Shown piece by piece: positions 1 to 48,448 of a DNA stretch of 48,448 bases; within the stretch, counting starts at the first letter, position 1; every line of letters begins with the position of its first letter. This DNA is from a virus, in the IMG/VR virus record IMGVR_UViG_3300037560_000135, positions 1-48,448 of that record. One strand, 5' to 3'. A program made the position numbers and the translations under genes. The notes beneath the pieces were generated by a model. The model worked only from the letters and a program-made list of their open reading frames with translations, had not been told where the DNA came from and ran no database searches.

Positions 1-127
1 GAGGACAGGATTCGACAACATGTCTATTTTGGGCTTTGCGTGAATTTGATGAAGTGTTCGCAATAGGATTTGATTATGGGCAAAAGCATGTAAAAGAAAT
101 TGAGCAAGCGGCTTTAATTGCAAAAAA
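1..127. repeat. Direct terminal repeat, copy 1 (assembly overlap)
   Basis: These 127 bases are identical to 48322-48448. A perfect overlap of 127 bases is the signature of a circular contig closed by a de Bruijn assembler at k=127, so it is probably not a biological terminal repeat. The genome should be read as circular or circularly permuted, about 48,321 bp long, cut within queC. Confidence 0.95.
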
Positions 128-638
128 AGCTAAGGTTTCTTACAAGGTATTTGACTTAAGAGGAGTATTTCAAGGAAGTAGTCTAGTTGATCACTTAATG
201 GATGTGAATGCAGCACACACAAAAAACCCTGACCTACCAAGCACTTTTACAGCTGGAAGAAATGCTGTTTTCTTGTCTATTGCTTGCGCATACGCGCACG
301 AAAACTATGCTCAAAATGTAGTAATTGGAGTTTGTGAAACTGATTACAGCGGTTATCCTGATTGCCGTCAAGAGTTCGTTACTTCTATGCAAAAAACGAT
401 GCGTTTAGCAATTGAAAATCAAGTTAACATCTTCGCTCCTTTGATGTATATGAGTAAAGCGCAGACTTGGAGACTAGCTAATGAGATGGGTATCTTAGAT
501 ATTATCATTGATCATACGCTGACAGATTATAACGGAGATATGACAAAGAACGAATGGGGATACGGAAAAGAAAACAACCCAGCTACCATTCTAAGAGCAA
601 AAGGATACCGAGAAGCAAAAGAAAAAGGGTGGATTTGA
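1..638 (+). CDS. queC: 7-cyano-7-deazaguanine synthase QueC, 3' part
   Basis: This is the downstream part of queC. The gene starts at the ATG at 48288 and runs through the circular junction, giving 223 residues. QueC uses ATP to convert 7-carboxy-7-deazaguanine, through an amide, to the nitrile preQ0. The PP-loop SGGQDS (residues 11-16) lies at the other end of the window. Here the family motifs FDYGQ, GRN and CETDYSGYPDCR are intact. The C-terminal zinc site is not. Where cellular QueC has TLTC and then CxxCxxC before LRA-G, this protein has TLTD and a cysteine-free loop before LRAKG, so all four zinc ligands are missing. The TTG near base 36 is only the first start-like codon after the cut. 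queF follows after 43 bases. Confidence 0.93.
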   Translation, partial: GQDSTTCLFWALREFDEVFAIGFDYGQKHVKEIEQAALIAKKAKVSYKVFDLRGVFQGSSLVDHLMDVNAAHTKNPDLPSTFTAGRNAVFLSIACAYAHENYAQNVVIGVCETDYSGYPDCRQEFVTSMQKTMRLAIENQVNIFAPLMYMSKAQTWRLANEMGILDIIIDHTLTDYNGDMTKNEWGYGKENNPATILRAKGYREAKEKGWI

Positions 639-681: not shown

Positions 682-1107
682 ATGGACGTAACTAACGAAA
701 GCATTGGACAATTGGCAGAGGGAAAAACCTTTGATTTTTTGCCAGAATCAGCTATCAAAACAGAAGAGTTGAAGACTTTCGAATTTGATAGTGAAGGCCA
801 ATTAATCACTACAGAAACTGAAGAATTTACAGCCGTATGCCCGTTCAGCGGATTGCCTGATATTGCTAAATTGACTATTAAGTATAATCCTGTAAGCGGT
901 AAATGTATTGAATTGAAGTCGCTGAAGTATTACTTGCTTTCATTCAGAAACGTAGGTATATATCAAGAAGCAGTCACTAAAAGAATTGCCGCTGATTTAT
1001 TTCACACATTAGACTTGAAATGTAATTTCAATCTTTACGTCAAAACAATATACAATGTGAGAGGTGGTTTCTTGACAACTTGTGAAGAAGGTTACAAGGA
1101 TATATGA
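682..1107 (+). CDS. queF: QueF-type NADPH-dependent preQ0 reductase
   Basis: The 141-residue product is short but has the unimodal QueF core. The CPFSGLPD motif carries the nucleophilic cysteine (C53) and proton-donor aspartate (D60). ELKSLKYY (77-84) matches the NADPH-site signature E-x-K-S-x-K, and Glu96 aligns with the substrate-binding glutamate. The histidine that usually precedes that glutamate is Gln. QueF reduces the nitrile of preQ0 to the aminomethyl of preQ1 with two NADPH. Its position between queC and the dpdA-like gene suggests preQ1, not preQ0, is the base put into DNA. A QueF-like amidinotransferase making an archaeosine-type base is a less likely alternative because the NADPH motif is kept. 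The A-rich leader ends in AAACAAACAAA before ATG. Confidence 0.9.
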   Translation: MDVTNESIGQLAEGKTFDFLPESAIKTEELKTFEFDSEGQLITTETEEFTAVCPFSGLPDIAKLTIKYNPVSGKCIELKSLKYYLLSFRNVGIYQEAVTKRIAADLFHTLDLKCNFNLYVKTIYNVRGGFLTTCEEGYKDI

Positions 1108-1829
1108 AATACTTTTTCAGTAGTCCTGAAGGGTTAAGAAAGACTCTTCAGAAAATGGGTGCAACTAGTTACTTATTATCTTTTGCAGTAGACGCGAAAA
1201 GCTGTGATAAATTCAACGCGCCAGAGAATGACGTAATCATTGACAGCGGAGCTTTTACAGTTTGGAATAAAGGTGGTACGATTAACATTAATGAATATGT
1301 CAATTTTTGCAGAACTAAGCCTGGTGATTGGTCATTCATAAATCTTGATGTGATACCAAAGACCGGGAGCAGCACGAAGGATATAGATTTATGCTGTGAG
1401 CAGAGCTACGAGAACTACCTTTATTTGAGTTCTAAGCTCTCGAATGTTCTTCCGGTCTATCATTACGGAGACAACGAGAAGTGGCTACACAAGTACATTG
1501 AGCACACAGACCATATCGGAATTAGTCCTGCGAACGATACGCACGAAAACGTAAAGCGTGAGTTCTTGAAAAAGTGCTTTGCAGTGACTGGAAAAACAGT
1601 GAAAGCGCACGGATTAGGATATAGCAGTTTAGACGGAATGCTAATGTTTCCGTTTTATAGTGTCGATAGTGTGTCATTCAAGAAGATTCCAGTATATCTT
1701 GGAGGGAAAAACACAACATTCTGGTTTAACTCTAAAATGGAGTTTTTAAATGAACAAAGAATCAAACAATTTTTAGATATGGAAAGATACGTTACAAGAG
1801 TATGGCATGAAAGGGGGGTGTTTTGGTAA
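1104..1829 (+). CDS. dpdA: DpdA-like DNA 7-deazaguanine transglycosylase
   Basis: The 241-residue protein resembles phage DpdA, the DNA-acting relatives of tRNA-guanine transglycosylase, which swap guanine for a 7-deazaguanine base. Visible TIM-barrel motifs are IIDSGAF (45-51, Asp47), NLDVIP (80-85, Asp82), VYHYGD (118-123), GISP, KAHGLGYSS (167-175) and YSVDSVSF (185-192, Asp188). The conserved aspartates are the expected base-recognition and nucleophile residues; which does which cannot be fixed by eye. The tRNA-binding zinc site of bacterial TGT is absent, as expected for a DNA enzyme. ATG overlaps the queF stop (ATGA), so the two are translationally coupled. All precursor genes are present in the phage, which supports the call. 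Confidence 0.82.
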   Translation: MKYFFSSPEGLRKTLQKMGATSYLLSFAVDAKSCDKFNAPENDVIIDSGAFTVWNKGGTININEYVNFCRTKPGDWSFINLDVIPKTGSSTKDIDLCCEQSYENYLYLSSKLSNVLPVYHYGDNEKWLHKYIEHTDHIGISPANDTHENVKREFLKKCFAVTGKTVKAHGLGYSSLDGMLMFPFYSVDSVSFKKIPVYLGGKNTTFWFNSKMEFLNEQRIKQFLDMERYVTRVWHERGVFW

Positions 1830-2314
1830 AAGGAAACTTTAAATATGAGACATTCAACAAAAGAGAATTATCAATTGATATTCCTGACGACTCAATGAAT
1901 CAAATGCTGGTACAATCTGTGATAAGCAACGGATTATTGAGGCCAATATTAATAGCAGACGTTAAAAAAGGAGACAAAATAACAGAAAACATGGTGGTAG
2001 ATGGTATGAAAATACTGGAAATTGCTAACAAAATAGGCATTGAAACTTTCAGAGTTGCTTGGATGGGGACGATGACTGAAGAGGAGTTTACATTGAAATA
2101 TCTCCAGATAAACACGTACAGATTGAATCTTGATTACATTGCAATTTCAAAGATAATTGCAAAGATTTCAGACACATATGGAGCTAATAGCTTGACAAAA
2201 GTACTTCCATATGACATAGATCAGATCAAATCATTAGTGAAATTGACGACATTCGATTGGGATAGTTTTAAGAAGTTAGATGGAGTTGATGAATCACAAA
2301 CAACTATGTTTTAA
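1823..2314 (+). CDS. ParB/Srx-fold protein coupled to dpdA
   Basis: The 163-residue product has a ParB/sulfiredoxin-like N-terminal half: a stretch GLLRPILIADV (about 38-48) then MVVDGMKILEIA, resembling the 'GLLQPI...VVDGHRRLEA' core of ParB-type domains. The C-terminal half is helical. The only usable start is a TTG at 1823, because the frame is closed just upstream; a G-rich stretch at 1812-1818 could act as a rare Shine-Dalgarno site. It overlaps the dpdA end by 7 bases. In the bacterial dpd system the DpdA transglycosylase works with DpdB, a ParB/Srx-type protein, so this may be the phage counterpart. A generic phage ParB-like nuclease is the alternative. Confidence 0.65.
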   Translation: MVKGNFKYETFNKRELSIDIPDDSMNQMLVQSVISNGLLRPILIADVKKGDKITENMVVDGMKILEIANKIGIETFRVAWMGTMTEEEFTLKYLQINTYRLNLDYIAISKIIAKISDTYGANSLTKVLPYDIDQIKSLVKLTTFDWDSFKKLDGVDESQTTMF

Positions 2315-7757: not shown

Positions 7758-8279
7758 ATGGAAAAATGGAAAGACATACCTGGATACGAAGGGCTTTACC
7801 AAGCTTCAACAGAAGGCAGAGTTAAGTCGTTGGATAGAGTGGTTGAAGATAGAGACGCGATCAGACGAAGAAAATTCAAAGAGCGAATCTTGAAGCTAAT
7901 ATTAGGTGGTAGCGGTTATTTTCACGTTGATTTGAGTAAAGAAGGAATAGAAAAAAACTTCAAAGTATCGCAATTAGTCGCTATGGCATTTTTAGGTCAC
8001 AAACGCTGCGGTCACAAAATAGTCGTTGATCACATTGATAATAATCGCAGCAACGATTTCGTAGAGAATTTACAGCTCATTTCTCATAGAGAAAACACGT
8101 CCAAAGACAAAAAAAGCTATTCAAGTGAATATACTGGAGTTTGTTGGAGTAAAGCAAGCAAGAAGTGGCATTCACAAATTCAGATAAACGGTAAAATCTG
8201 CTACTTAGGGCAGTTTGAAAACGAACTACATGCCTCTAAAGCATACCAAACTGCGCTGAAAGATGTTTTGCAAGACTGA
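7758..8279 (+). CDS. NUMOD4/HNH homing endonuclease with AP2-like tail
   Basis: The 173-residue protein has a NUMOD4 start (WKDIPGYEGLYQASTEGRVKS, 4-23). The HNH core is FLGHKRCGH..VVDHIDNNRSNDFVENLQLIS, with the His-Asn-Asn pattern near 90-108. The C-terminal segment YTGVCWSKASKKWHSQI reads as an AP2-type DNA-binding domain. This is the architecture of free-standing phage homing endonucleases. It was probably acquired as a mobile gene after the terminator. Confidence 0.85.
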   Translation: MEKWKDIPGYEGLYQASTEGRVKSLDRVVEDRDAIRRRKFKERILKLILGGSGYFHVDLSKEGIEKNFKVSQLVAMAFLGHKRCGHKIVVDHIDNNRSNDFVENLQLISHRENTSKDKKSYSSEYTGVCWSKASKKWHSQIQINGKICYLGQFENELHASKAYQTALKDVLQD

Positions 8280-8721
8280 CGGATGCGAAAATTATTCAGA
8301 GAACGCTTCTACGGACTTCTGCGCTTCTTGCGCTCGCATTGCTCGTAAGAAGCCACGAAAGACGCTTAGGCACAAAATAAACCCTATTAGCGCAAAGAAA
8401 TCAAAGGCTCGGGCTGCTAAGATAGCAACCTATAAAAAAATGGACGACACTCAGGCTCATATTTGTTCTGGCTGCGGAAGTGGTTCATACCCGTTAAGCC
8501 ATAGCCATATTATTCCAGTAGGTCAATTTCCAGAGTTCGAAGCAGAATTGACAAACATCGTTTATGATTGCTTAACGATCGGAGAGCATCTTGGTTGTCA
8601 TGACAAATGGGAGCACGGAACTACTGAAGAAAAACAAGAGCTATTGAACTACACTGAAAGAATGCAAGTAATAAAGACCTTGTCTATACCATACTTAAAA
8701 CGCATTTTACTAAAGATGTAG
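8263..8721 (+). CDS. Zinc-finger HNH-like nuclease candidate
   Basis: The 152-residue protein has an N-terminal C-x4-C...C-x2-C knuckle, a basic linker (about 25-55), and a second half with CSGCG...LSHSHIIP...NIVYDC...LGCHDKWEHG, which resembles the beta-beta-alpha metal site of HNH nucleases. Related proteins occur in Bacteroidota phage recombination regions, where a NinG-like role is possible. It overlaps the preceding homing endonuclease by 17 bases. Confidence 0.6.
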   Translation: MFCKTDGCENYSENASTDFCASCARIARKKPRKTLRHKINPISAKKSKARAAKIATYKKMDDTQAHICSGCGSGSYPLSHSHIIPVGQFPEFEAELTNIVYDCLTIGEHLGCHDKWEHGTTEEKQELLNYTERMQVIKTLSIPYLKRILLKM

Positions 8722-19321: not shown

Positions 19322-19939
19322 GTGATAGAATTAACAAACGAAGACAATATGCAACTAATGGCTAGATACGAAGATAATCACTTTGATCTAGCTATTGTTG
19401 ATCCTCCTTATGGGATAAATATAAATATAAGTATGGGTAGAAGAAAAGGCAACAAAAAAAGTGGTTATCATAAATTTGCTGGAAGTGATTCATGCATACC
19501 GTCTACAGATTATTTCAAAGAACTAAAAAGAGTATCTAAGAATCAGATAGTATGGGGGGGTAACTACATGACAGAACATTTAGAGCCTAGTCCATGTTGG
19601 ATTCTTTGGGATAAAGGATTCTCTGAAGATGTCACTTTTGCTCAGTTTGAAATGGCTTGGACTTCTTTTAAATCAAGTGCAAAGAAATACGATAAGCACC
19701 CTAGCCAACAACATAGAATACACCCAACACAAAAACCTGTAAATCTATACGAGTGGACTTTGGATAAGTACGCCAAAGAAGGCGACAAGATACTCGACAC
19801 TCATTTAGGCTCAGGAAGCATAGCAATAGCATGCCACAACCGTAAGTACGATTTAACAGCGTGCGAACTAGACAAGGAATATTTCGACTTGAGTATTAAA
19901 AGGTATGAATTAGTTACTTCGCAAAAGAGATTATTTTAA
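19322..19939 (+). CDS. Orphan DNA adenine-N6 methyltransferase (beta class)
   Basis: The 205-residue enzyme has motif IV DPPY (27-30) before motif I DTHLGSGS (159-166), which is the beta-class order. HPTQKP (134-139) is typical of these enzymes. They transfer a methyl group from S-adenosylmethionine to the N6 of adenine (less often N4 of cytosine). No restriction nuclease adjoins it, so it probably protects phage DNA or marks it. The start is a GTG at 19322. It is a second modification system beside the 7-deazaguanine genes. Confidence 0.88.
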   Translation: MIELTNEDNMQLMARYEDNHFDLAIVDPPYGININISMGRRKGNKKSGYHKFAGSDSCIPSTDYFKELKRVSKNQIVWGGNYMTEHLEPSPCWILWDKGFSEDVTFAQFEMAWTSFKSSAKKYDKHPSQQHRIHPTQKPVNLYEWTLDKYAKEGDKILDTHLGSGSIAIACHNRKYDLTACELDKEYFDLSIKRYELVTSQKRLF

Positions 19940-20068: not shown

Positions 20069-22612
20069 ATGCCTGAAACTATTTACAGCCAAAAAGATGC
20101 CTTTTTCCTCGAAATAGACGGATTTGACTTGAAAATAAGAGAACCACAGCTATGGAGTAAGGTCGAAGCGTCAATTTCAAGGAACTTGAAGACTCATGGT
20201 GTAGATGTCAATTTTCCTTCCAAAGATAGCCCTCTTGAATACTCAGATGACCCCGATGAAGAGTCTGGATTAAGATCAAAAACCCTCATTGACAACGTAT
20301 TTAACACTAAAGGCCCTGATGGAGACATAGTGATCAAGTTTGGTACTTGGGATGGTGTAACGTTCACAGAAATTACCAGACAAAAGATTGATCTCAGCAA
20401 GGGATACGAGAACGGTTTACATCTCACAAAAGCTAGCGTCACAAATCTATCAGCTAAACAGCGTATTTTAGATCACATTGACACACCAGTCAACTTAGAT
20501 GACATAGAAGATATTCTGGGCGTTACTTTGTCAGGGGCACCAGCACCACTACCACAAGAGAATATTAATCTACACAGCCAAGTATTAATTAAAATCACAG
20601 AGCAGACTAATCCTAACCAAACTATATCTGACGGTATTGAATATGACATAAATGATGGTTCTTTTGGTGATTTTAAGACATATTTCTTGCAATACGCGTT
20701 TCAAGACAAAATTAAATCAGATGGATTTGAAGATTTTAACATCCCTAACGGCATAAGTGCATTAGACCCTATTGCTAACCTTAAAGCTAACTTTAGAGCA
20801 GAGGTGTCTGGAACGATCACAATCAACGCCCCAACTTCGTTAAAAGCTTTGTTGAATCTTGATATTGGTGTTGGGTTTAATGTAATTGGTAATTATACAA
20901 CATATATTAAAGTAGGTACACAAGCTAATCAACGTGAATTTATAATAGGTTCAGGGGCTATCAATATTATAACGTCAGCAGCCATAGAAACAATAAATAC
21001 TCAAGCAGAGGTTGACACTGATTTTGAAATACCGTATGTGGTTAAAGGTGATTATGTATGGATATACACATTGGTAGATATATCAGGAGGGTCTGGTGCT
21101 AAAGTGTCGTCAGTTCAGTTTCGACACGGATTTTTTAAAGTACCCCCTACCGCTCCATTTGATAAATTTCATGACCAACAAATACAAATGACATTTGATA
21201 CTTATGCTTCTGCAAGTGTTAACCCTGCATACAGATTAGTAGATGCGATAAGATACATGTTTTATGTGCTCACAGGCGACAACGATACCTTTAAAGTTGA
21301 TAGCTTTTTTGATTCGTTAGGCGCTGGATACGACTTTCACTTTTTAAACGGTTATCTTCTTAGATCGATAAACACACAGAACAAGCGACCATCAATCAAT
21401 GCAGAAGAATTGTTCGAGTCTGTGAACATGATGTGGGGATTAGGGCAAAACATAGAAATCGACAATGATGGGAATGTGAATGTGGTGTGGGAAGAGGTTG
21501 AGCATTTTTACCAAGACCACGAAGTGCTCGACTTATCAGATAATACGTGGAATTTCAGGATAGTATCAAATAAAGAATCTTCGATCAATACAGTTAAATT
21601 TAGTTATCCTCGACTAAGTGTAAGGGAGACAGACGGAGGTGGATCGATTGACGCTATCAATACAGAGATACAATCATCGCTGCCACTTGAGACAGGACGT
21701 AAAAAATACAGTAAGCGCAATAACTTAAGAACGGAAGGATATGAAATTGAATCAGCAAGACGTACATCAGTAATTGACAAAGAAAGTGTAAACACAGATG
21801 AAGACGGATTTGTGATTAATACTAAAGAGTTGTTTACGTTTGCGACTATTGTCACATTCAACGAAGAGTTTAAACAAATCACCATACCAGAGTCGGCATT
21901 TGAGTTCTTCAGAAGAGTAGGACGATTAGATATCACAGGCACAGCAAGCAATAATATCACAATCACGTATGACATTGATAATCTAGTAGTCGAATCAGGC
22001 CCTATTCTAAAGATAGTTGTGAATGAAGACTTAGTGGATGAAGTTAATATCAATTCAACATTCACTGCTACTGGTTCACTTAGTAAGCAAAATGAAGACT
22101 TTGATAAGACTGTATTCGTAGATGGATTGACAGAAACAGCTAAAGACGATAATTACAATGTCATCTTACAGCCAATGCGAACACTGATTCAGCATAGTAA
22201 ATGGGTGAATCAAGCAGTGGTACAAAAAGTCAAAACGCTATTGTACAAGACATTGAAGCACTTGAACGCTGATAACTTCAGGTCACAGCTAAACGTTGGT
22301 GCTACACACGTATATGGAGACATAGGGAGAGTTGAAGTGTCACCGCAAGACAGTATCGCTATAGAAGATTGCTATGAGGGTAAGTCAATTATAACCAATC
22401 GCAGATTTATGTTTAGTGCAGAGATATCAAGAGAACAGTTTGCACTATTGACAGAATCACAGAGAGGGCAAGGAGCGACTCCTTACGGCTATATTAGCAC
22501 ACGTAACAATGACGGTGAGAAAGTGTCCGCGTGGATTATAGATGTATCTGGCGAGCCGAACGAAAACACTTATGATTTAATACTAGCAGAGAAAGGAGAT
22601 TTTTATGGCTAA
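20069..22612 (+). CDS. Large tail/baseplate protein
   Basis: The 847-residue product is rich in beta strands, and lies between the tape measure region and a receptor-type protein. The order resembles that of the tail-associated baseplate-hub (Tal-like) protein of Bacteroidota siphoviruses. The N-terminal part (1-150) has the EIDGFDLKIREPQLWSKVE style of hub domains, and a middle helix-strand zone (about 370-460; YMFYVLTGDNDTFKVDSFFDSLG) follows. I see no catalytic motif. It overlaps the next gene by 8 bases. Confidence 0.6.
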   Translation: MPETIYSQKDAFFLEIDGFDLKIREPQLWSKVEASISRNLKTHGVDVNFPSKDSPLEYSDDPDEESGLRSKTLIDNVFNTKGPDGDIVIKFGTWDGVTFTEITRQKIDLSKGYENGLHLTKASVTNLSAKQRILDHIDTPVNLDDIEDILGVTLSGAPAPLPQENINLHSQVLIKITEQTNPNQTISDGIEYDINDGSFGDFKTYFLQYAFQDKIKSDGFEDFNIPNGISALDPIANLKANFRAEVSGTITINAPTSLKALLNLDIGVGFNVIGNYTTYIKVGTQANQREFIIGSGAINIITSAAIETINTQAEVDTDFEIPYVVKGDYVWIYTLVDISGGSGAKVSSVQFRHGFFKVPPTAPFDKFHDQQIQMTFDTYASASVNPAYRLVDAIRYMFYVLTGDNDTFKVDSFFDSLGAGYDFHFLNGYLLRSINTQNKRPSINAEELFESVNMMWGLGQNIEIDNDGNVNVVWEEVEHFYQDHEVLDLSDNTWNFRIVSNKESSINTVKFSYPRLSVRETDGGGSIDAINTEIQSSLPLETGRKKYSKRNNLRTEGYEIESARRTSVIDKESVNTDEDGFVINTKELFTFATIVTFNEEFKQITIPESAFEFFRRVGRLDITGTASNNITITYDIDNLVVESGPILKIVVNEDLVDEVNINSTFTATGSLSKQNEDFDKTVFVDGLTETAKDDNYNVILQPMRTLIQHSKWVNQAVVQKVKTLLYKTLKHLNADNFRSQLNVGATHVYGDIGRVEVSPQDSIAIEDCYEGKSIITNRRFMFSAEISREQFALLTESQRGQGATPYGYISTRNNDGEKVSAWIIDVSGEPNENTYDLILAEKGDFYG

Positions 22613-25600
22613 TTTTGTATTACTAAAAAACCTAGTAAGCAATCCGAACGTATCTGGAGAGCTTAATAATGGATTCAGTTGGATTCAGAAAAACAATGAA
22701 GTCTGGTGCAGTGAGAAAGGGCGCATAAATTACTCTAGTGATTTCGGTGTGTCTTTCATCAATGTATACAATACTGACTCAGTTAGTCCTGGTAGTAAGG
22801 ATGAAGACATTTGGCTGTATGAGCACAACGATGAAATTTTTTCAACAGGGAATGAAGTAAAGACGGGCAATGAATACCATTTTAGAAAGTGGAATACGTT
22901 CACGTTTGATAATTTGCTCGAAGTTGTAGTTGCCAATGCGCCGATAACTTATCTCGCTAATGTCGAATTCAGCTCAAAGCATTATATAGTCGTACTAGAA
23001 CTAGGCACTACAAATGATATCAAGATATACGAGCAGTCAGGCGATACGATCAGTTTACTGCAAACGATAGTAGGTGCGGGCGCTAGTGTTCCAGTTATAG
23101 CAATCTTTGAGTTTCAAAACGATCTGTATTTGTTGTACCAGATCGGGTTTACTGATTCAGAAATGTTCAAGCTCGTAGGAGCTAGTTTTGTGTCTCAATT
23201 TACAACAGGAGGGATATTATTTGCAGCTGGTGAGTTTGGTGCTGATGCTTATTACTACGAAAGAAGCTCAAGAGACATCGGAACGATCAATATGGTCACT
23301 GGTGCATTGACACCTATTACAACAATTGCAGAAGCCGCACAGAGCTTTGAACGATCATACTTTAGAGAAGTATCAGGAGATTTTAATTTGATCATTGGTA
23401 CAGCGGTAAATATAGGTGCTGGATCAAGAGTTTACGTGTATGCGTTCAACGGAGCTATATTCACTAAGACGTATGAAAAGACAAATAGCCAAATTGGTGA
23501 TGCAGTTGAAACGGCAAGTAAAATAATCATAGGGCAGATAGGCAATGAGTTCTTTGAAAATGAGTGTAACATCTTTTATGAAGGATTTAGCTCGACTAAC
23601 GAAACTAATGCAAACACTGATGATGGAACGATCACTCATGATGTTAATACAGATAATGCGGTCGGAACTGTAGAATACAGGTTGCTAGATCAATTTGAAG
23701 TTGAAGTTGTAACATGGCAAGTGGCAGCACTATTTGAGAACCTTGTACCAGGCGTGTATTTGCTTGAAGCACGTGATGACGATTGTTCTACGAGGTTCAG
23801 CGTACAAGTAAGCATATTAGAGTTTCAATCTAGTCCACTTGAACAGCAAGCGTCAAGAAGTAGAGACTATCTCAACAGTCCAAACTTCACTAGGTATCGT
23901 CAAATATTTGGCATGACGTTGAGCGACTTTCAAGCGTTGAATGGTGAATTACCACCACCAATAGACGAGGTGCTACCTGTAATTCCTGAAACATTTGTTT
24001 ATTCAGTGACAGTTGGTGCTGCGGAAACAATCTCATTGCCGATGTTAAGTGGTGATGATTCACTATATGATTTTACAGTGAATTTCGGAGACGGAACAGG
24101 AGACAAAACAGTAACCGCCTACGCTGACCCTGATAGACAACATACTTATGCAGGTGCAGGGACTTTTGATATAATTGTTAAAAGAGTGTTTGATTACATA
24201 TTATTTGCTGATTCACCTGATTCAATCGTAGAATTGAAATCTTTCAATCCAGCTGGAGTAGGAGAAGATTCGTTTTTAGATTGCTCAAATCTTATTAAAA
24301 TAAGTGCTATTAATATTCCTTCCCTCATTCGCTTGAACAATTTGAATGGATGTTTTATGAACTGTTCCGCATTAGTCGTTGTAAACATATCTATAAACAG
24401 TTGGAACGTTAGCGCGGTGACTGATATGGCGTCAATGTTTGATGGTGCAACATTTTTTAATCAAGCTGTAGATGGATGGGATGTAGGTGCAGTTACTACT
24501 ATGAGTAGTATGTTTAGAAATGCTTCAGCTTTTAATCAATTATTGAATTCATGGAATGTTGCTGCCGTTACGAATATGAGTAGCATGTTTAGATTCACAA
24601 GTGCATTTAATGGAAATATAATATCTTGGAACGTTGGATTAGTTACTACTATGTCTAATATGTTTGAAGGTGCAACAGTATTTAATCAAAATATTGATTC
24701 TTGGAACGTTGGAGCAGTGACTAACATGTCAACCATGTTTAGTGACGCGACACTATTCAATAGGAACATAGGCTCTTGGAACGTTGGAGCGGTTACGAAT
24801 ATGAGTGTGATGTTCGATGGCGCAATAGCGTTCAATCAATCGCTTAATTCTTGGGATGTGAGCGCAGTTATTAACATGAGCATTATGTTTAGAAATGCCA
24901 ATGCTTTTAATGGAGCAATTGGCGCATGGGTTGTGAGCGCAGTTACCAACATGTCAAGTATGTTCGATGGCGCAGATGTGTTCAATCAATCATTAAATTC
25001 ATGGGATGTCAGCATAGTGACTAATATGGGTATTATGTTCAGAAGTTGCCCATTATTCAATGGAGACATTAGCAGTTGGAACGTTGGCGCAGTAACCAGC
25101 ATGGCTTCAATGTTTAGATTTTGCACAGTATTTAATGTAGACATAAGCTCTTGGAATGTTGGAGCTGTGACAATAATGTCAAACATGATTGAAAGTTGTA
25201 CCGCATTTAATCAAGACATTAGCGGTTGGAATGTGGGTAATGTAACAACAATGGCTTCTATGTTTGCTAACGCCACCGCGTTTGATCAAGATATTAGCTC
25301 TTGGAATATTACGTCCATAACAACAATGGCGAGCATGTTCCTTAATGTGACATTATCGACACTTAATTATGATGCGATTTTGGATGTTAATACGGGTTGG
25401 CCGTCTCAAGCTGTTTTAAGTAGCGTTTCTTTTCACGCTGGTAACTCAACATACACACAAACTGCCGTTGATAGCGGAACTACAGACGCGACAACAGCGA
25501 ATAAACTAGTAGATAGTACACAGAATTTCTTAACTACTGTTTCAATTGGAGACATAGCACACAATACAACTGATGGAACATTTGGCAAAGTCACAGCTAT

Positions 25601-25745
25601 TGATTCAGACACGACATTATCAGTAAGTAATGATGTATTCCCAACAGGAAAAGCATATGTGATACAAAGTTCTGATGCTGCAAAAGGAAGATTTGAATTA
25701 AGCGATACAAATAGTTGGACAATAACAGATGGAGGAGCAGTTTAA
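22605..25745 (+). CDS. BspA/DUF285-repeat tail surface protein
   Basis: The 1046-residue protein has an N-terminal beta-rich domain (about 1-320), a PKD-like domain (about 465-530; VNFGDGTGDK...HTYAGAGTFDIIVKR), then 13 tandem 25-residue repeats (about 598-923) of the form SWNV--VT-MS-MF--A--FNQ-I. These are BspA-like/DUF285 repeats, known from surface adhesins of Mycoplasma, Bacteroidota and Firmicutes. A C-terminal region (about 925-1046) closes it. In a phage the likely role is host or surface binding at the tail tip. Repeat number is a natural site for expansion and contraction. Confidence 0.82.
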   Translation: MANFVLLKNLVSNPNVSGELNNGFSWIQKNNEVWCSEKGRINYSSDFGVSFINVYNTDSVSPGSKDEDIWLYEHNDEIFSTGNEVKTGNEYHFRKWNTFTFDNLLEVVVANAPITYLANVEFSSKHYIVVLELGTTNDIKIYEQSGDTISLLQTIVGAGASVPVIAIFEFQNDLYLLYQIGFTDSEMFKLVGASFVSQFTTGGILFAAGEFGADAYYYERSSRDIGTINMVTGALTPITTIAEAAQSFERSYFREVSGDFNLIIGTAVNIGAGSRVYVYAFNGAIFTKTYEKTNSQIGDAVETASKIIIGQIGNEFFENECNIFYEGFSSTNETNANTDDGTITHDVNTDNAVGTVEYRLLDQFEVEVVTWQVAALFENLVPGVYLLEARDDDCSTRFSVQVSILEFQSSPLEQQASRSRDYLNSPNFTRYRQIFGMTLSDFQALNGELPPPIDEVLPVIPETFVYSVTVGAAETISLPMLSGDDSLYDFTVNFGDGTGDKTVTAYADPDRQHTYAGAGTFDIIVKRVFDYILFADSPDSIVELKSFNPAGVGEDSFLDCSNLIKISAINIPSLIRLNNLNGCFMNCSALVVVNISINSWNVSAVTDMASMFDGATFFNQAVDGWDVGAVTTMSSMFRNASAFNQLLNSWNVAAVTNMSSMFRFTSAFNGNIISWNVGLVTTMSNMFEGATVFNQNIDSWNVGAVTNMSTMFSDATLFNRNIGSWNVGAVTNMSVMFDGAIAFNQSLNSWDVSAVINMSIMFRNANAFNGAIGAWVVSAVTNMSSMFDGADVFNQSLNSWDVSIVTNMGIMFRSCPLFNGDISSWNVGAVTSMASMFRFCTVFNVDISSWNVGAVTIMSNMIESCTAFNQDISGWNVGNVTTMASMFANATAFDQDISSWNITSITTMASMFLNVTLSTLNYDAILDVNTGWPSQAVLSSVSFHAGNSTYTQTAVDSGTTDATTANKLVDSTQNFLTTVSIGDIAHNTTDGTFGKVTAIDSDTTLSVSNDVFPTGKAYVIQSSDAAKGRFELSDTNSWTITDGGAV
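24399..25373 (+). repeat. Thirteen 75-bp coding repeats
   Basis: Thirteen units of about 75 bases encode the 25-residue DUF285 repeats. Nucleotide identity between units is partial, with TTGGAACGTTGG and ATGTTTAGA phrases recurring. They are in phase with the reading frame and therefore are protein repeats, not CRISPR. Confidence 0.85.
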
Positions 25746-27546: not shown

Positions 27547-28699
27547 TTTTAATTTCGAATGCACAGAAGTATTTGAACGCAATTATGACGCTAGTGCTCG
27601 GATTGTTGTTAATCGTGGTGGTACGAGATCGAGCAAGACAGTGAGCCTGAACCAGCTATGGTTGATCAAGTCATTCGAAGAGCACAACAAAAAGATACTA
27701 GTCACACGGAAGACATTCCCTTCTTTGCGTTTATCAGCAATGCGCGATTTTACAGACATGGTATATTTGTCTGAAGTTGGACATTTATTTCACCACAACA
27801 GGAGTTTCAATTACTTCCGTAACAAAATCACTGGGACAGAGATACACTTCCACTCAAGCGATAACCCGCAAAAAGTAAGATCACAGAAATGGGATTATAT
27901 ACACTTAGTAGAAGCTAACGAACTTGAGTATGAAATATTCAGACAATACATACTACGATCACCAGGGCAAATATTCATAGACTTTAATCCGAGTGAAGAA
28001 GATATCTGGATTAATACAGAAGTCGAGCAAAAGCGTAATGACGTGCAAGTCATACAATCGAGCTACCTGGACAATCCGTACCTTGAGCCTGAGATCATCA
28101 AAGAGATTGAATATTTGCGCGACACTGACGCGAATTACTGGCAGATATACGGACTGGGAGAATACGGAACAGTAAGGCACAAAGTCTGGACAGGCTGGAA
28201 GTTCATTGATCCGGTTGAATACGACCGCGCCCCTGCTTTAGATGTGTTCTATGGATACGATGACGGTTATGTCTCTCCTCGTGCTCTTGTCGAGCTTAAA
28301 TGGTATAATGAGATACTTTACATTCGTGAGAAGTTTTACAAGAGCTATACGAAAGTGGATGAGTGTATCGAAGTTATGAAGCAAGACAAAGTCGATGAAA
28401 ACAATCCTATTTATTGCGACACTGAAAACCCACAAGCGCGGGCAGATATGAGCAGCGCAGGATTTGCAGCATACAAAGCGAATAAGAAAGTAAAGTTTGG
28501 ACTTGGTTATGTGCGTAGATTCAAAGACGTGCGAGTGTGTACCTCAAGCGTAAACGTTAAGAAGGAGTATAACAAATACAAATACCGAGAAGATCCAAAC
28601 GGAAAACCAATGGAAGAGCCTGTGAAGTTCGATGATCATTTAATGGACTGCGTACGTTATGGCGTTGTTTCGCACTTACACCACGTTTTTAGTGTTTAG
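27533..28699 (+). CDS. terL: Terminase large subunit
   Basis: The 388-residue protein has Walker A GGTRSSKT (29-36), Walker B IHLVEANE (123-130; the usual aspartate is Glu) and a C-terminal RNase H-like nuclease with acidic residues in YGYDDG (Asp243/244), YCDTENP (Asp296) and DDHLMDC (Asp367/368). This is the Terminase_3 type. It cuts concatemers and pumps DNA into the prohead. ATG at 27533 is preferred to an in-frame TTG at 27527. It overlaps terS by 14 bases. Confidence 0.95.
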   Translation: MNQVDFNFECTEVFERNYDASARIVVNRGGTRSSKTVSLNQLWLIKSFEEHNKKILVTRKTFPSLRLSAMRDFTDMVYLSEVGHLFHHNRSFNYFRNKITGTEIHFHSSDNPQKVRSQKWDYIHLVEANELEYEIFRQYILRSPGQIFIDFNPSEEDIWINTEVEQKRNDVQVIQSSYLDNPYLEPEIIKEIEYLRDTDANYWQIYGLGEYGTVRHKVWTGWKFIDPVEYDRAPALDVFYGYDDGYVSPRALVELKWYNEILYIREKFYKSYTKVDECIEVMKQDKVDENNPIYCDTENPQARADMSSAGFAAYKANKKVKFGLGYVRRFKDVRVCTSSVNVKKEYNKYKYREDPNGKPMEEPVKFDDHLMDCVRYGVVSHLHHVFSV

Positions 28700-28729
28700 T
28701 TGCAATAACGTATGTTTTGCATTAACTTG
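28700..28729 (+). promoter_or_regulatory. Candidate promoter of the HNH gene
   Basis: TTGCAA (28700-28705), 17 bases and TAACTTG (28723-28729) fit the -33/-7 spacing. The HNH gene would have its own short transcript. Confidence 0.45.
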
Positions 28730-28742
28730 CAAAAAAAACATT

Positions 28743-29378
28743 ATGGATCGCGATTTTAAAATTCAAGTAAGAGACGATGGTACAGTTTTTCAAACAGCGT
28801 ATGGTAGAACTTACAATCTTCCGGCAGGTGAAACCTATTTTCAAATGGGTGAATCAATGCACAGAGAAGTCTATGTGAAAAACTTCGGTGATATTCCAAA
28901 AGGATTTCATGTTCATCATAAAGACTTCAACCCTTGGAACAACCGCCCAGAGAATTTACAAGCGATGCTAGCGAGTAAGCATATTGCGATGCACGCAAAA
29001 AAACGATTTAAAGACAATGTAGAATGGTTTAAAGGCTTTCAGAAAAAAGGAGTCGAAGCGTCAAAAACATGGCACAGCTCAAAAGAAGGAATAGAGTGGC
29101 ATAAGCAACACGCTAAAAACAGCAACTTCAGTAAGCATGACTTTGGGGAAGCGGATTGTGTCGTCTGCTCAACACCTTTTAAGAAGTATCAAAAAAAGCA
29201 AACAATCTGTTCTCCAAAATGCGTATCAAAACACAGGCGTGATTCAGGAGTTGACAATGAGAAAAGAGTGTGTATTAACTGCAAAAAACCCTTTACAGTT
29301 AATAAATACAGCGCAGCAAAAAACTGTTCAAAGAGTTGCGCCCAACGTTTTCTCAGTATAACACAAAATATATTATAA
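28743..29378 (+). CDS. HNH endonuclease with C-terminal zinc fingers
   Basis: The 211-residue protein has a homing-type HNH core (FHVHHKDFNPWNNRPENLQAM, about 57-77; the His-His, Asn and Asn are in place). The C-terminus has two zinc modules of the C-x2-C...C-x3-C form (CVVC...CSPKC and CINC...CSKSC). A 5'-proximal VRDDGTVFQTAYGRTY segment may be a NUMOD. It separates terL from the downstream small genes, as free-standing homing genes often do in terminase regions. Confidence 0.85.
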   Translation: MDRDFKIQVRDDGTVFQTAYGRTYNLPAGETYFQMGESMHREVYVKNFGDIPKGFHVHHKDFNPWNNRPENLQAMLASKHIAMHAKKRFKDNVEWFKGFQKKGVEASKTWHSSKEGIEWHKQHAKNSNFSKHDFGEADCVVCSTPFKKYQKKQTICSPKCVSKHRRDSGVDNEKRVCINCKKPFTVNKYSAAKNCSKSCAQRFLSITQNIL

Positions 29379-30616: not shown

Positions 30617-31177
30617 ATGCAATACATTACAAGGAAAGGAAATTTCGATAGCGCGCACCGCGTTATGAATGAGAAAATGAAGTGCTTTCAGATCCACGGG
30701 CACACATACTTATTTGAATTAACATTTGAGTTTGAATCAATTTCAACGATTGGTTACGCTATTGATTTCAAAGAGATTAAGCGTGTAGCATGTCAGTGGA
30801 TTGATGACTTACTAGACCATGGAGTCATTTGTAATCCGCATGACGACATTATGATTAAAGCGGCAAAGGATTTGAAGTCTAAAACGTGGGTCATGTCTTT
30901 AAATGGTATAGGGCAATATTGTAATCCAACTGTTGAGAACATTGTGAAAGAAATATTCTTAGCTATGCGGGTATTATTTGAAAACAATTATGTTGAAAGC
31001 GGGTTAAAAATCCATCACGTCAAATTGTATGAAACACCAAACTGTTGGACTGATTGCTATTATGAGTCAATCAATGAGTCAGAAGAAAAAAACTTCAACA
31101 TAATGCGCAGGCCATTAGTCCTTAGATACGCTGAGGAGAAAGGCATAGTTGATTACAGCGATTCATCAAGCCAATAA
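30617..31177 (+). CDS. queD: 6-carboxytetrahydropterin synthase QueD
   Basis: The 186-residue protein has the QueD/PTPS core. Zinc ligands are His14 (FDSAHR) and His27/His29 (CFQIHGH), the catalytic cysteine is Cys23, and LDHGV (66-70) carries the catalytic His68. The C-terminal KLYETPNCW has the substrate-binding glutamate. QueD turns dihydroneopterin triphosphate, made by FolE, into 6-carboxytetrahydropterin, the substrate of QueE. It lies about 16 kb from queE/folE/queC, between terminase and head genes. The length is above the usual 120-130 because of an insertion after the HGH motif and a C-terminal tail (about 155-186). Confidence 0.9.
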   Translation: MQYITRKGNFDSAHRVMNEKMKCFQIHGHTYLFELTFEFESISTIGYAIDFKEIKRVACQWIDDLLDHGVICNPHDDIMIKAAKDLKSKTWVMSLNGIGQYCNPTVENIVKEIFLAMRVLFENNYVESGLKIHHVKLYETPNCWTDCYYESINESEEKNFNIMRRPLVLRYAEEKGIVDYSDSSSQ

Positions 31178-46823: not shown

Positions 46824-46983
46824 CATAAGGAGTGTGCTAGAATCTCACACTTCAAAGAAATCAAGCAAAGCACACCTTAAAAGCTTGCGCGATGTGTACA
46901 CAGAAATAATGATTAGGAATAGAGTAGAAACTAAATTTTTCAATTTAAACAAACAATTTAATGAACCAACTGAAAATCAGTGA
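46801..46983 (+). CDS. Small basic protein
   Basis: The 60-residue basic helical protein starts at the ATG at 46801. It overlaps queE by 23 bases. No family is recognised. Confidence 0.5.
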   Translation: MTTRQLHNIRSVLESHTSKKSSKAHLKSLRDVYTEIMIRNRVETKFFNLNKQFNEPTENQ

Positions 46984-47710
46984 AAGCTTTTACAGCATTC
47001 AGGGCGAAGGAAAAACTGTAGGCGTGCCGGCTTATTTTTTACGGCTTACAGACTGTAATTTATTGTGTGGAGGTAAAGGAACGATCCAAGACAAACACCT
47101 TCATGACGGAGCTAAATGGCGCTGTGATAGTATTGAATCTTGGACAAAAGGTGGACTAATTACCTATGCTGATATTATCGAATATTTTGGCGAATTATTT
47201 TTGCCATCGCTAGAATCTCGTCACGCTCATTTAGTGATTACGGGAGGGGAGCCGCTTATGCAGCAAAATCAATTAATCTCTTTTTGTAAAATAATTATGT
47301 CACTAACAAACAGAAGAGCGTTTATTGAGATTGAAACAAACGGTACAATCACGCCTTTTGAAGATTTAGCTTTTTATGTTTCGCTGTGGAACGTGAGTCC
47401 AAAGCTTTCTGGTAGCGGAATGCGGGAAAATGTACGATTCAAAAAAGATGTTATTATGACTTTTAACTACCTACCTTCTATAATGAAATTTGTAGTGAAC
47501 GACAACGAGGATATGAAGGAGTTATTAAACACTTATTGGCCTTTGCTTAATACTGAATTAAGGAAAAATACGTACTTAATGCCTGGCGTAGATCAACAAG
47601 ATGAATATGCTGAAATAAGCCAATGGGTAATTGAGCAATGCAAAACGCTTAGGGTCAATTATGGAGCTCGTCTTCAAATAGCTATTTACGACCAAACAAC
47701 AGGAGTGTGA
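46961..47710 (+). CDS. queE: 7-carboxy-7-deazaguanine synthase QueE (radical SAM)
   Basis: The 249-residue protein has the QueE start ISESFYSIQGEGKTVGVPAYFLRLTDCN and VITGGEPL (92-99). QueE uses S-adenosylmethionine and a [4Fe-4S] cluster to turn 6-carboxytetrahydropterin into 7-carboxy-7-deazaguanine. The cluster cysteines are Cys32 and Cys36, but the third is at 55, spaced CX3CX18C, not CX3CX2C. An insertion of about 16 residues (GGKGTIQDKHLHDGAKWR) thus lies in the cluster loop. Its start ATG follows TTTAAACAAACAATTTA. The stop overlaps folE. Confidence 0.9.
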   Translation: MNQLKISESFYSIQGEGKTVGVPAYFLRLTDCNLLCGGKGTIQDKHLHDGAKWRCDSIESWTKGGLITYADIIEYFGELFLPSLESRHAHLVITGGEPLMQQNQLISFCKIIMSLTNRRAFIEIETNGTITPFEDLAFYVSLWNVSPKLSGSGMRENVRFKKDVIMTFNYLPSIMKFVVNDNEDMKELLNTYWPLLNTELRKNTYLMPGVDQQDEYAEISQWVIEQCKTLRVNYGARLQIAIYDQTTGV

Positions 47711-48264
47711 TGATAAACGAAGAAGCAGCCGAAAAGGCAATCAGAGACTTTTTACAAGCAATAGGAGAAGATGTTGATCGAGACGGATTAAAAGATACTC
47801 CAAAACGATATGTTAAGTTCATGAAGGAGTTTCTAAATCCTCCTGACTTCAGTATGACAACATTCGATCAAGAGAAGTACGGAGGGATTGTGATAAGTTC
47901 AAATATTCCTTTCTTCTCATTATGCGAACATCATATGGCGCCGTTTTTTGGTCATGCTCACATTGCATATATTCCTGATCCTGAAAAAAAGAAGATAATC
48001 GGAATTAGCAAGCTGCCAAGAACGCTCGATAAATTCGCGCGAGGTCTTCAGAATCAAGAGCGTATCACTGAAGGATGTGCTCAATATCTTATGAATAAAC
48101 TCGAAGCTAAAGGGGTGGCTGTGATCATAAAAGCGCGTCACTTATGCCAAGAAATGAGAGGTGTGAAAAAGCATGACGTTTACACAACCACATCAACTAT
48201 GAAAGGTGAATTCATGGAAGATACGGCAGCACGACAGGAATTATTTCAATTAATTAAACTATAA
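47710..48264 (+). CDS. folE: GTP cyclohydrolase I
   Basis: The 184-residue protein has the FolE core: zinc ligands Cys72 and His75 in SLCEHHM and Cys146 in RHLCQEMRG, the GISKLPR motif (about 98-104) and the C-terminal R-EFL-like end ([10 protein letters not shown]). It makes dihydroneopterin triphosphate from GTP, the first step to 7-deazaguanine. ATG at 47710 is preferred to GTG at 47707. It shares one base with the queE stop, and queC follows after 23 bases. Confidence 0.95.
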
Positions 48265-48287: not shown

Positions 48288-48448
48288 ATGAAAAAAAGAA
48301 AAGCAGTAGTCCTTCTATCGGGAGGACAGGATTCGACAACATGTCTATTTTGGGCTTTGCGTGAATTTGATGAAGTGTTCGCAATAGGATTTGATTATGG
48401 GCAAAAGCATGTAAAAGAAATTGAGCAAGCGGCTTTAATTGCAAAAAA
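48288..48448 (+). CDS. queC: 7-cyano-7-deazaguanine synthase QueC, 5' part
   Basis: This is the start of queC, at ATG 48288 after a short AT-rich leader. It carries the ATP-binding PP-loop SGGQDST (11-17). The gene continues at bases 3-638 of the window across the circular join, and the overlap 48322-48448 repeats bases 1-127. See the other part for the rest. Confidence 0.95.
48322..48448. repeat. Direct terminal repeat, copy 2 (assembly overlap)
   Basis: Identical to bases 1-127; see copy 1. Removing one copy makes the queC frame continuous. Confidence 0.95.

Follow-up and report, generated by a model that had tools for sequence, protein, structure and literature searches.

The window, by which we mean the whole stretch of 48,448 nucleotides analysed here (virus record IMGVR_UViG_3300037560_000135), begins and ends with the same 127 bp, bases 1-127 being identical to bases 48322-48448, so that it probably represents an entire phage genome, joined as a circle. 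Its unique length is about 48.3 kb and its GC content 37%. The queC gene was found to span the contig join, running from an ATG at 48288 to a stop codon at 638 with no frameshift and encoding 223 aa. The original prediction had placed queC at 1-638, which is correct for the stop codon but includes only the 3' part of the gene. The pathway genes and the features of queC are as follows.

48288..48448, + strand: 5' part of queC, with the ATG at 48288 and the SGGQDS PP-loop (127-bp identical ends; intact frame across the join; PF06508 matches at both ends)
1..638, + strand: 3' part of queC, encoding the greater share of the 223-residue Cys-free protein; bases 1-127 are also found at the window's end (PF06508, 220 bits; TIGR00364, 215.5 bits)
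525..587, + strand: former zinc loop of queC, residues 187-207, with Cys replaced by Asp187, Lys201, Asn204 and Thr207 (alignments)
627..632, + strand: C-terminal Gly221-Trp222 tail of QueC, conserved only in the Cys-free clade described below (clade alignment)
682..1107, + strand: queF, preQ1 synthase (nitrile reductase), QueF-II type (PF14489, 5.8e-18; TIGR03139, 91.5 bits, cutoff 86.9)
1104..1829, + strand: DpdA-like DNA transglycosylase, which probably inserts the base into DNA (phrog_887, queuine tRNA-ribosyltransferase, 1.1e-44; 60% identity to phi47:1 gp52)
1823..2314, + strand: ParB-like nuclease/partition protein accompanying the dpdA gene (phrog_16545, 4e-10; same neighbour in phi47:1)
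30617..31177, + strand: queD, distant from the other pathway genes (PF01242, 5.4e-27)
46961..47710, + strand: queE, radical SAM (phrog_2076, 2e-46)
47707..48264, + strand: folE, GTP cyclohydrolase I (PF01227, 2.6e-60)

The predicted gene set of this phage comprises all of the preQ0 genes together with QueF and a DNA inserter. QueF is placed in QueF-II by a score above the TIGR03139 equivalog cutoff, by the E(S/L)K(S/A)xK NADPH motif, and by its catalytic Cys and Asp, which align with those of B. subtilis QueF (4f8b; CPFSGLPD, ELKSLK). It carries Gln instead of the B. subtilis His before Glu97, a replacement common to many QueF partners of bacterial Cys-free QueCs. For the DpdA-like protein, no DpdA match was found in NCBIfam or PADLOC.

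A zinc-sparing operon was considered and rejected. FolE and QueD of the window retain their Cys/His zinc ligands, as judged by eye, and the pathway as a whole is therefore not zinc-free. In several related phage contigs (L003, positions 7761-8600; L004-L007; L095-L098) FolE is extended at its N-terminus by a domain of ~100 aa, in which the sequence VIVDDIIDSGET resembles a phosphoribosyltransferase motif, in line with a weak family match. Elsewhere in the window, a large protein with four stretches of DUF285 repeats (412 bits) is encoded among the structural genes at 22605-25745, and an N6/N4 DNA methyltransferase, present besides the 7-deazaguanine pathway, at 19322-19939. There are two HNH endonucleases (7758-8279 and 28659-29378), one with NUMOD4; the second gene overlaps the end of the terminase gene.

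Replacement of the zinc ligands in QueC

The claim that QueC of this phage lacks all four zinc cysteines was borne out by alignment of the intact protein with cellular and phage homologues, as had been proposed. With B. subtilis QueC (3BL5, E 9e-58) and Cys-containing phage QueCs as references, the four positions are occupied by the residues listed above, and the part corresponding to CxxCxxC aligns free of gaps. The PP-loop, SGGQDS, is intact as had been stated, and YGQKHxxE, GRN, YPDCR and Tyr188 are kept; in the VPxRN motif VP is changed to TA, while the Asn and the essential Arg are retained. The score against TIGR00364 is above the QueC equivalog cutoff of 150.3 bits, whereas none of the four zinc ligands is present (D/K/N/T). 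As no zinc ligand is left, the protein was classed as a zinc-free variant and not as canonical QueC.

Because the contig ends cut queC, a frameshift, an assembly error or decay of the gene had to be considered as the cause of the missing cysteines. The original prediction had named a frameshift or sequencing error as a possible refutation. The frame is, however, intact across the identical ends, the exact pattern DY[ND]GDMTKNEWG recurs in nine other viral contigs (motif scan; some near-identical to one another), a related motif occurs in bacterial chromosomes, and the catalytic motifs are fully conserved in the clade to which the protein belongs. The chance that error or decay explains the observation is thus practically nil.

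A maximum-likelihood tree of QueC was built without the columns of the zinc loop. Thirty Cys-free QueCs, from the window, phage contigs and bacteria, formed one clade with support of 99/95, and the Cys-free label requires two changes on the tree. To judge from these sequences, the loss of the cysteines has a single origin within the 30-member clade. The first cysteine position is Asp and the third Asn in all members (30/30 each), the fourth is Ser or Thr (30/30) and the second is variable; the compared Cys-containing set has Cys in 74/74. The C-terminal tail has Gly in 30/30 and Trp in 29/30 members, and is a gap in 70-71 of the 74 Cys-containing QueCs. SGGQDS, Y37/Q39/H41/E44, R98/N99, Y130-R134 and Y188 are invariant across the clade, and in its phage members TA or TS stands in place of the VP of VPxRN. 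For E. coli QueC, passages of a 2026 survey of the family (PMC13329287) name Y35, R99, Y131 and Y189, in that protein's own numbering, as essential.

The proposal that the enzyme may be zinc-independent is supported by the sequences: none of the ligands remains, the clade has acquired no invariant Cys or His of its own, and the loop is predicted to be well folded without cysteines. Since the window gene spans the join, the structure modelled was that of QueC from phage L003, a 57% identical relative. The AlphaFold2 model had a pLDDT of 93.7 overall and 91-98 over the loop and tail (93.7 for a Cys-containing control), and its best PDB matches in Foldseek were 3bl5 and 2pg3, the two solved QueCs. 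This model fits a self-supporting loop, though such models do not test metals. An alternative metal site, formed by Asp187/Asn204/Thr207 or by the clade-enriched His76/Asp79/His84, would find some support in the invariance or near-invariance of Asp187, Asp/Asn203 and Asn204 and in the enrichment of His76 (24/30) and His84 (25/30). These histidines are, however, not invariant, and a search of the 30-member alignment for an alternative invariant Cys/His site found none. An Asp/Asn/Thr set would make a poor zinc site, and the loop is predicted with confidence in a model that holds no metal and is blind to metals. Retained metal binding is hence considered unlikely.

Bacterial carriers and the product of the reaction

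A scan of bacterial genomes returned Cys-free QueC as its ten best matches, and the best matches include Planctomycetaceae, Poribacteria, Rhodothermus, Adhaeribacter aerolatus, Cesiribacter andamanensis and Myxococcota. A pattern scan of the phylum to which Cesiribacter belongs detected Cys-free QueC in 16 of 396 genomes, and the Cys-free C-terminus is present in 14 of 90 genomes of one class of that phylum. Among 24 bacterial carriers, several of them incomplete assemblies, the Cys-free form is the sole intact QueC in 23. QueF above the cutoff was found in 23/24 of these carriers, QueA in 24/24 and TGT in all ten tested, and in 15 genomes QueF lies ≤ 0.9 kb from the Cys-free QueC. Genome G013 has an additional, broken copy of the same kind. 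Genome G296 has a canonical QueC together with a Cys-free copy in a prophage-like region (L216; G296:C17:41000-58000) which, as read by eye, also contains queD, queE, folE, a DpdA-like gene, a ParB-like gene and probable packaging genes. The sole carrier without QueF is Adhaeribacter aerolatus. In this organism (L113:5470-11877) QueD, Cys-free QueC, PDC-M57A (a PADLOC candidate-defence protein), NurA, HerA and a DpdA-like protein form one block, a possible DNA-modification/defence island of unusual composition.

These data bear on the suggestion that QueC without cysteines might stop at the amide (ADG), in which case the phage DNA would contain dADG and QueF would be idle or would act on preQ0 made by the host. 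In passages of the family survey, C(x)8CxxCxxC does count as a hallmark of the canonical enzyme, whose function is said to require zinc (PMC13329287), and the operon QueF is missing from several related phage contigs (L004-L006, L095-L098). Raw PF14489 counts in viral contigs mislead, as FolE also scores; among these contigs a true QueF stands beside QueC in L003 and L007 only. Yet bacteria with the Cys-free form as their only intact QueC retain QueF, TGT and QueA, and the QueF of the window exceeds the curated preQ1-synthase cutoff. An enzyme stopping at the amide would deny its carriers a pathway that requires the nitrile and that they keep, which does not support this suggestion. Moreover, all four cysteines are present in QueC from CP20 and CJLB-14, two Campylobacter phages, and CP220 and CPt10, of the same group, reportedly carry 100% dADG (cited in PMC8306585). 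Taken with the bacterial QueF/QueA context, this indicates that cysteine loss and an amide product are not coupled. A halt at the amide is accordingly regarded as quite improbable, and the coexistence of queC and queF, presented in the original prediction as a puzzle, ceases to be one, as QueF accompanies Cys-free QueC in bacteria.

A QueC-like enzyme with another job, such as QatC/Cap9-type protein deazaguanylation or sulfur transfer, was weighed because Foldseek also returned Cap9 (TM 0.70) and LarE/TtuA. The top sequence and fold matches are nevertheless canonical QueC, the TIGR00364 score is above the cutoff, and queC is grouped with folE, queE, queF and dpdA; the likelihood of a different function is very small.

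With the ATP and substrate residues intact, Cys-free QueC most likely performs both steps. It is highly likely that the window QueC is a phage member of a zinc-free QueC lineage which also supplies the chromosomal QueC of many bacteria, and that its pathway leads to the DNA base dPreQ1. In this lineage Asp, a variable residue, Asn and Ser/Thr have jointly taken the place of the four cysteines, and the Gly-Trp tail has been gained. We infer that polar contacts and packing by these substitutes, in place of zinc, keep the loop and its essential Tyr188 in position. Cys-free QueC would then convert CDG to ADG and ADG to preQ0. QueF reduces the nitrile, here presumably yielding preQ1 from preQ0. The DpdA-like protein is predicted to transfer this base to the DNA of the phage, which would then contain dPreQ1.

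Relation to known systems

The window QueC shares with canonical QueC (TIGR00364 / PF06508 cluster 1; B. subtilis 3BL5, E. coli) the fold, the PP-loop, YxQxHxxE, RN, YPDC and the essential Tyr, as well as a position in the preQ0 pathway beside QueF, QueE and FolE. The Cys-free clade differs in having D/x/N/S-T for the cysteines and the extra Gly-Trp tail, and its phage members in the altered VP of VPxRN. The bacterial Cys-free QueCs (Rhodothermota/Bacteroidota, with a Rhodothermus MAG and Cesiribacter andamanensis; single Planctomycetaceae, Poribacteria and Myxococcota MAGs) belong to the one clade with the window and have the same kind of replacement and the tail. Unlike the window gene they are chromosomal, often adjoin QueF for tRNA queuosine and usually keep VP of VPxRN.

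The gene cluster of Cellulophaga phage phi47:1 shares FolE, QueF, the DpdA-like and ParB-like proteins, QueC, QueD and QueE with the window, and its QueF (62% identity) and DpdA-like protein (60%) are the closest matches of the window proteins. In phi47:1, however, QueC has all four cysteines, the gene order is different and QueD is not displaced, while QueC, QueE and FolE of the window are closer to those of the Cys-free phage L003 (57%, 43% and 56%). As a zinc QueC in phi47:1 and a zinc-free QueC in the window feed related QueF and DpdA-like proteins, the same downstream pair appears to work with either form.

A further group, the Immutovirus-type QueC (Flavobacterium phage immuto, L083, and many contigs among L014-L082), is also without all four cysteines. 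Its loss is independent of that in the window clade on the tree, with the replacement TSYKP...SDYKSASSVER and no Gly-Trp tail. The one member tested is below the TIGR00364 cutoff, and QueF was found in 5/8 and QueD in 8/8 records of this type. Loss of the zinc site in one form of a protein is likewise known from zinc-free paralogs, namely zinc-free ribosomal proteins and FolE2; these are usually Zur-regulated backups beside the zinc form (PMC6103462), whereas Cys-free QueC is usually the only copy.

No zinc-free canonical QueC is described in the above passages of the 2026 survey (PMC13329287), and a literature search of partial coverage found no report of a Cys-free QueC subfamily. We consider it likely that the zinc site of QueC is dispensable for the carboxylate-to-nitrile chemistry and that it was lost at least twice, in the ancestor of the bacterial-plus-phage clade and in a large phage group, the cysteine set being swapped each time for a distinctive polar set. 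The result would be a natural metal-free form, usually the sole copy and not a backup for zinc starvation.

QueC is among the few enzymes that convert a carboxylic acid to a nitrile, and the Cys-free form would offer a metal-free scaffold in which this reaction may be studied or used. With a natural clade that has no zinc ligand, the zinc motif is unfit as a reason to reject QueC function, and for annotators the absence of zinc cysteines does not mean the absence of preQ0. The findings further suggest that phage DNA-modification operons exchange zinc and zinc-free QueC ahead of the same QueF and DpdA.
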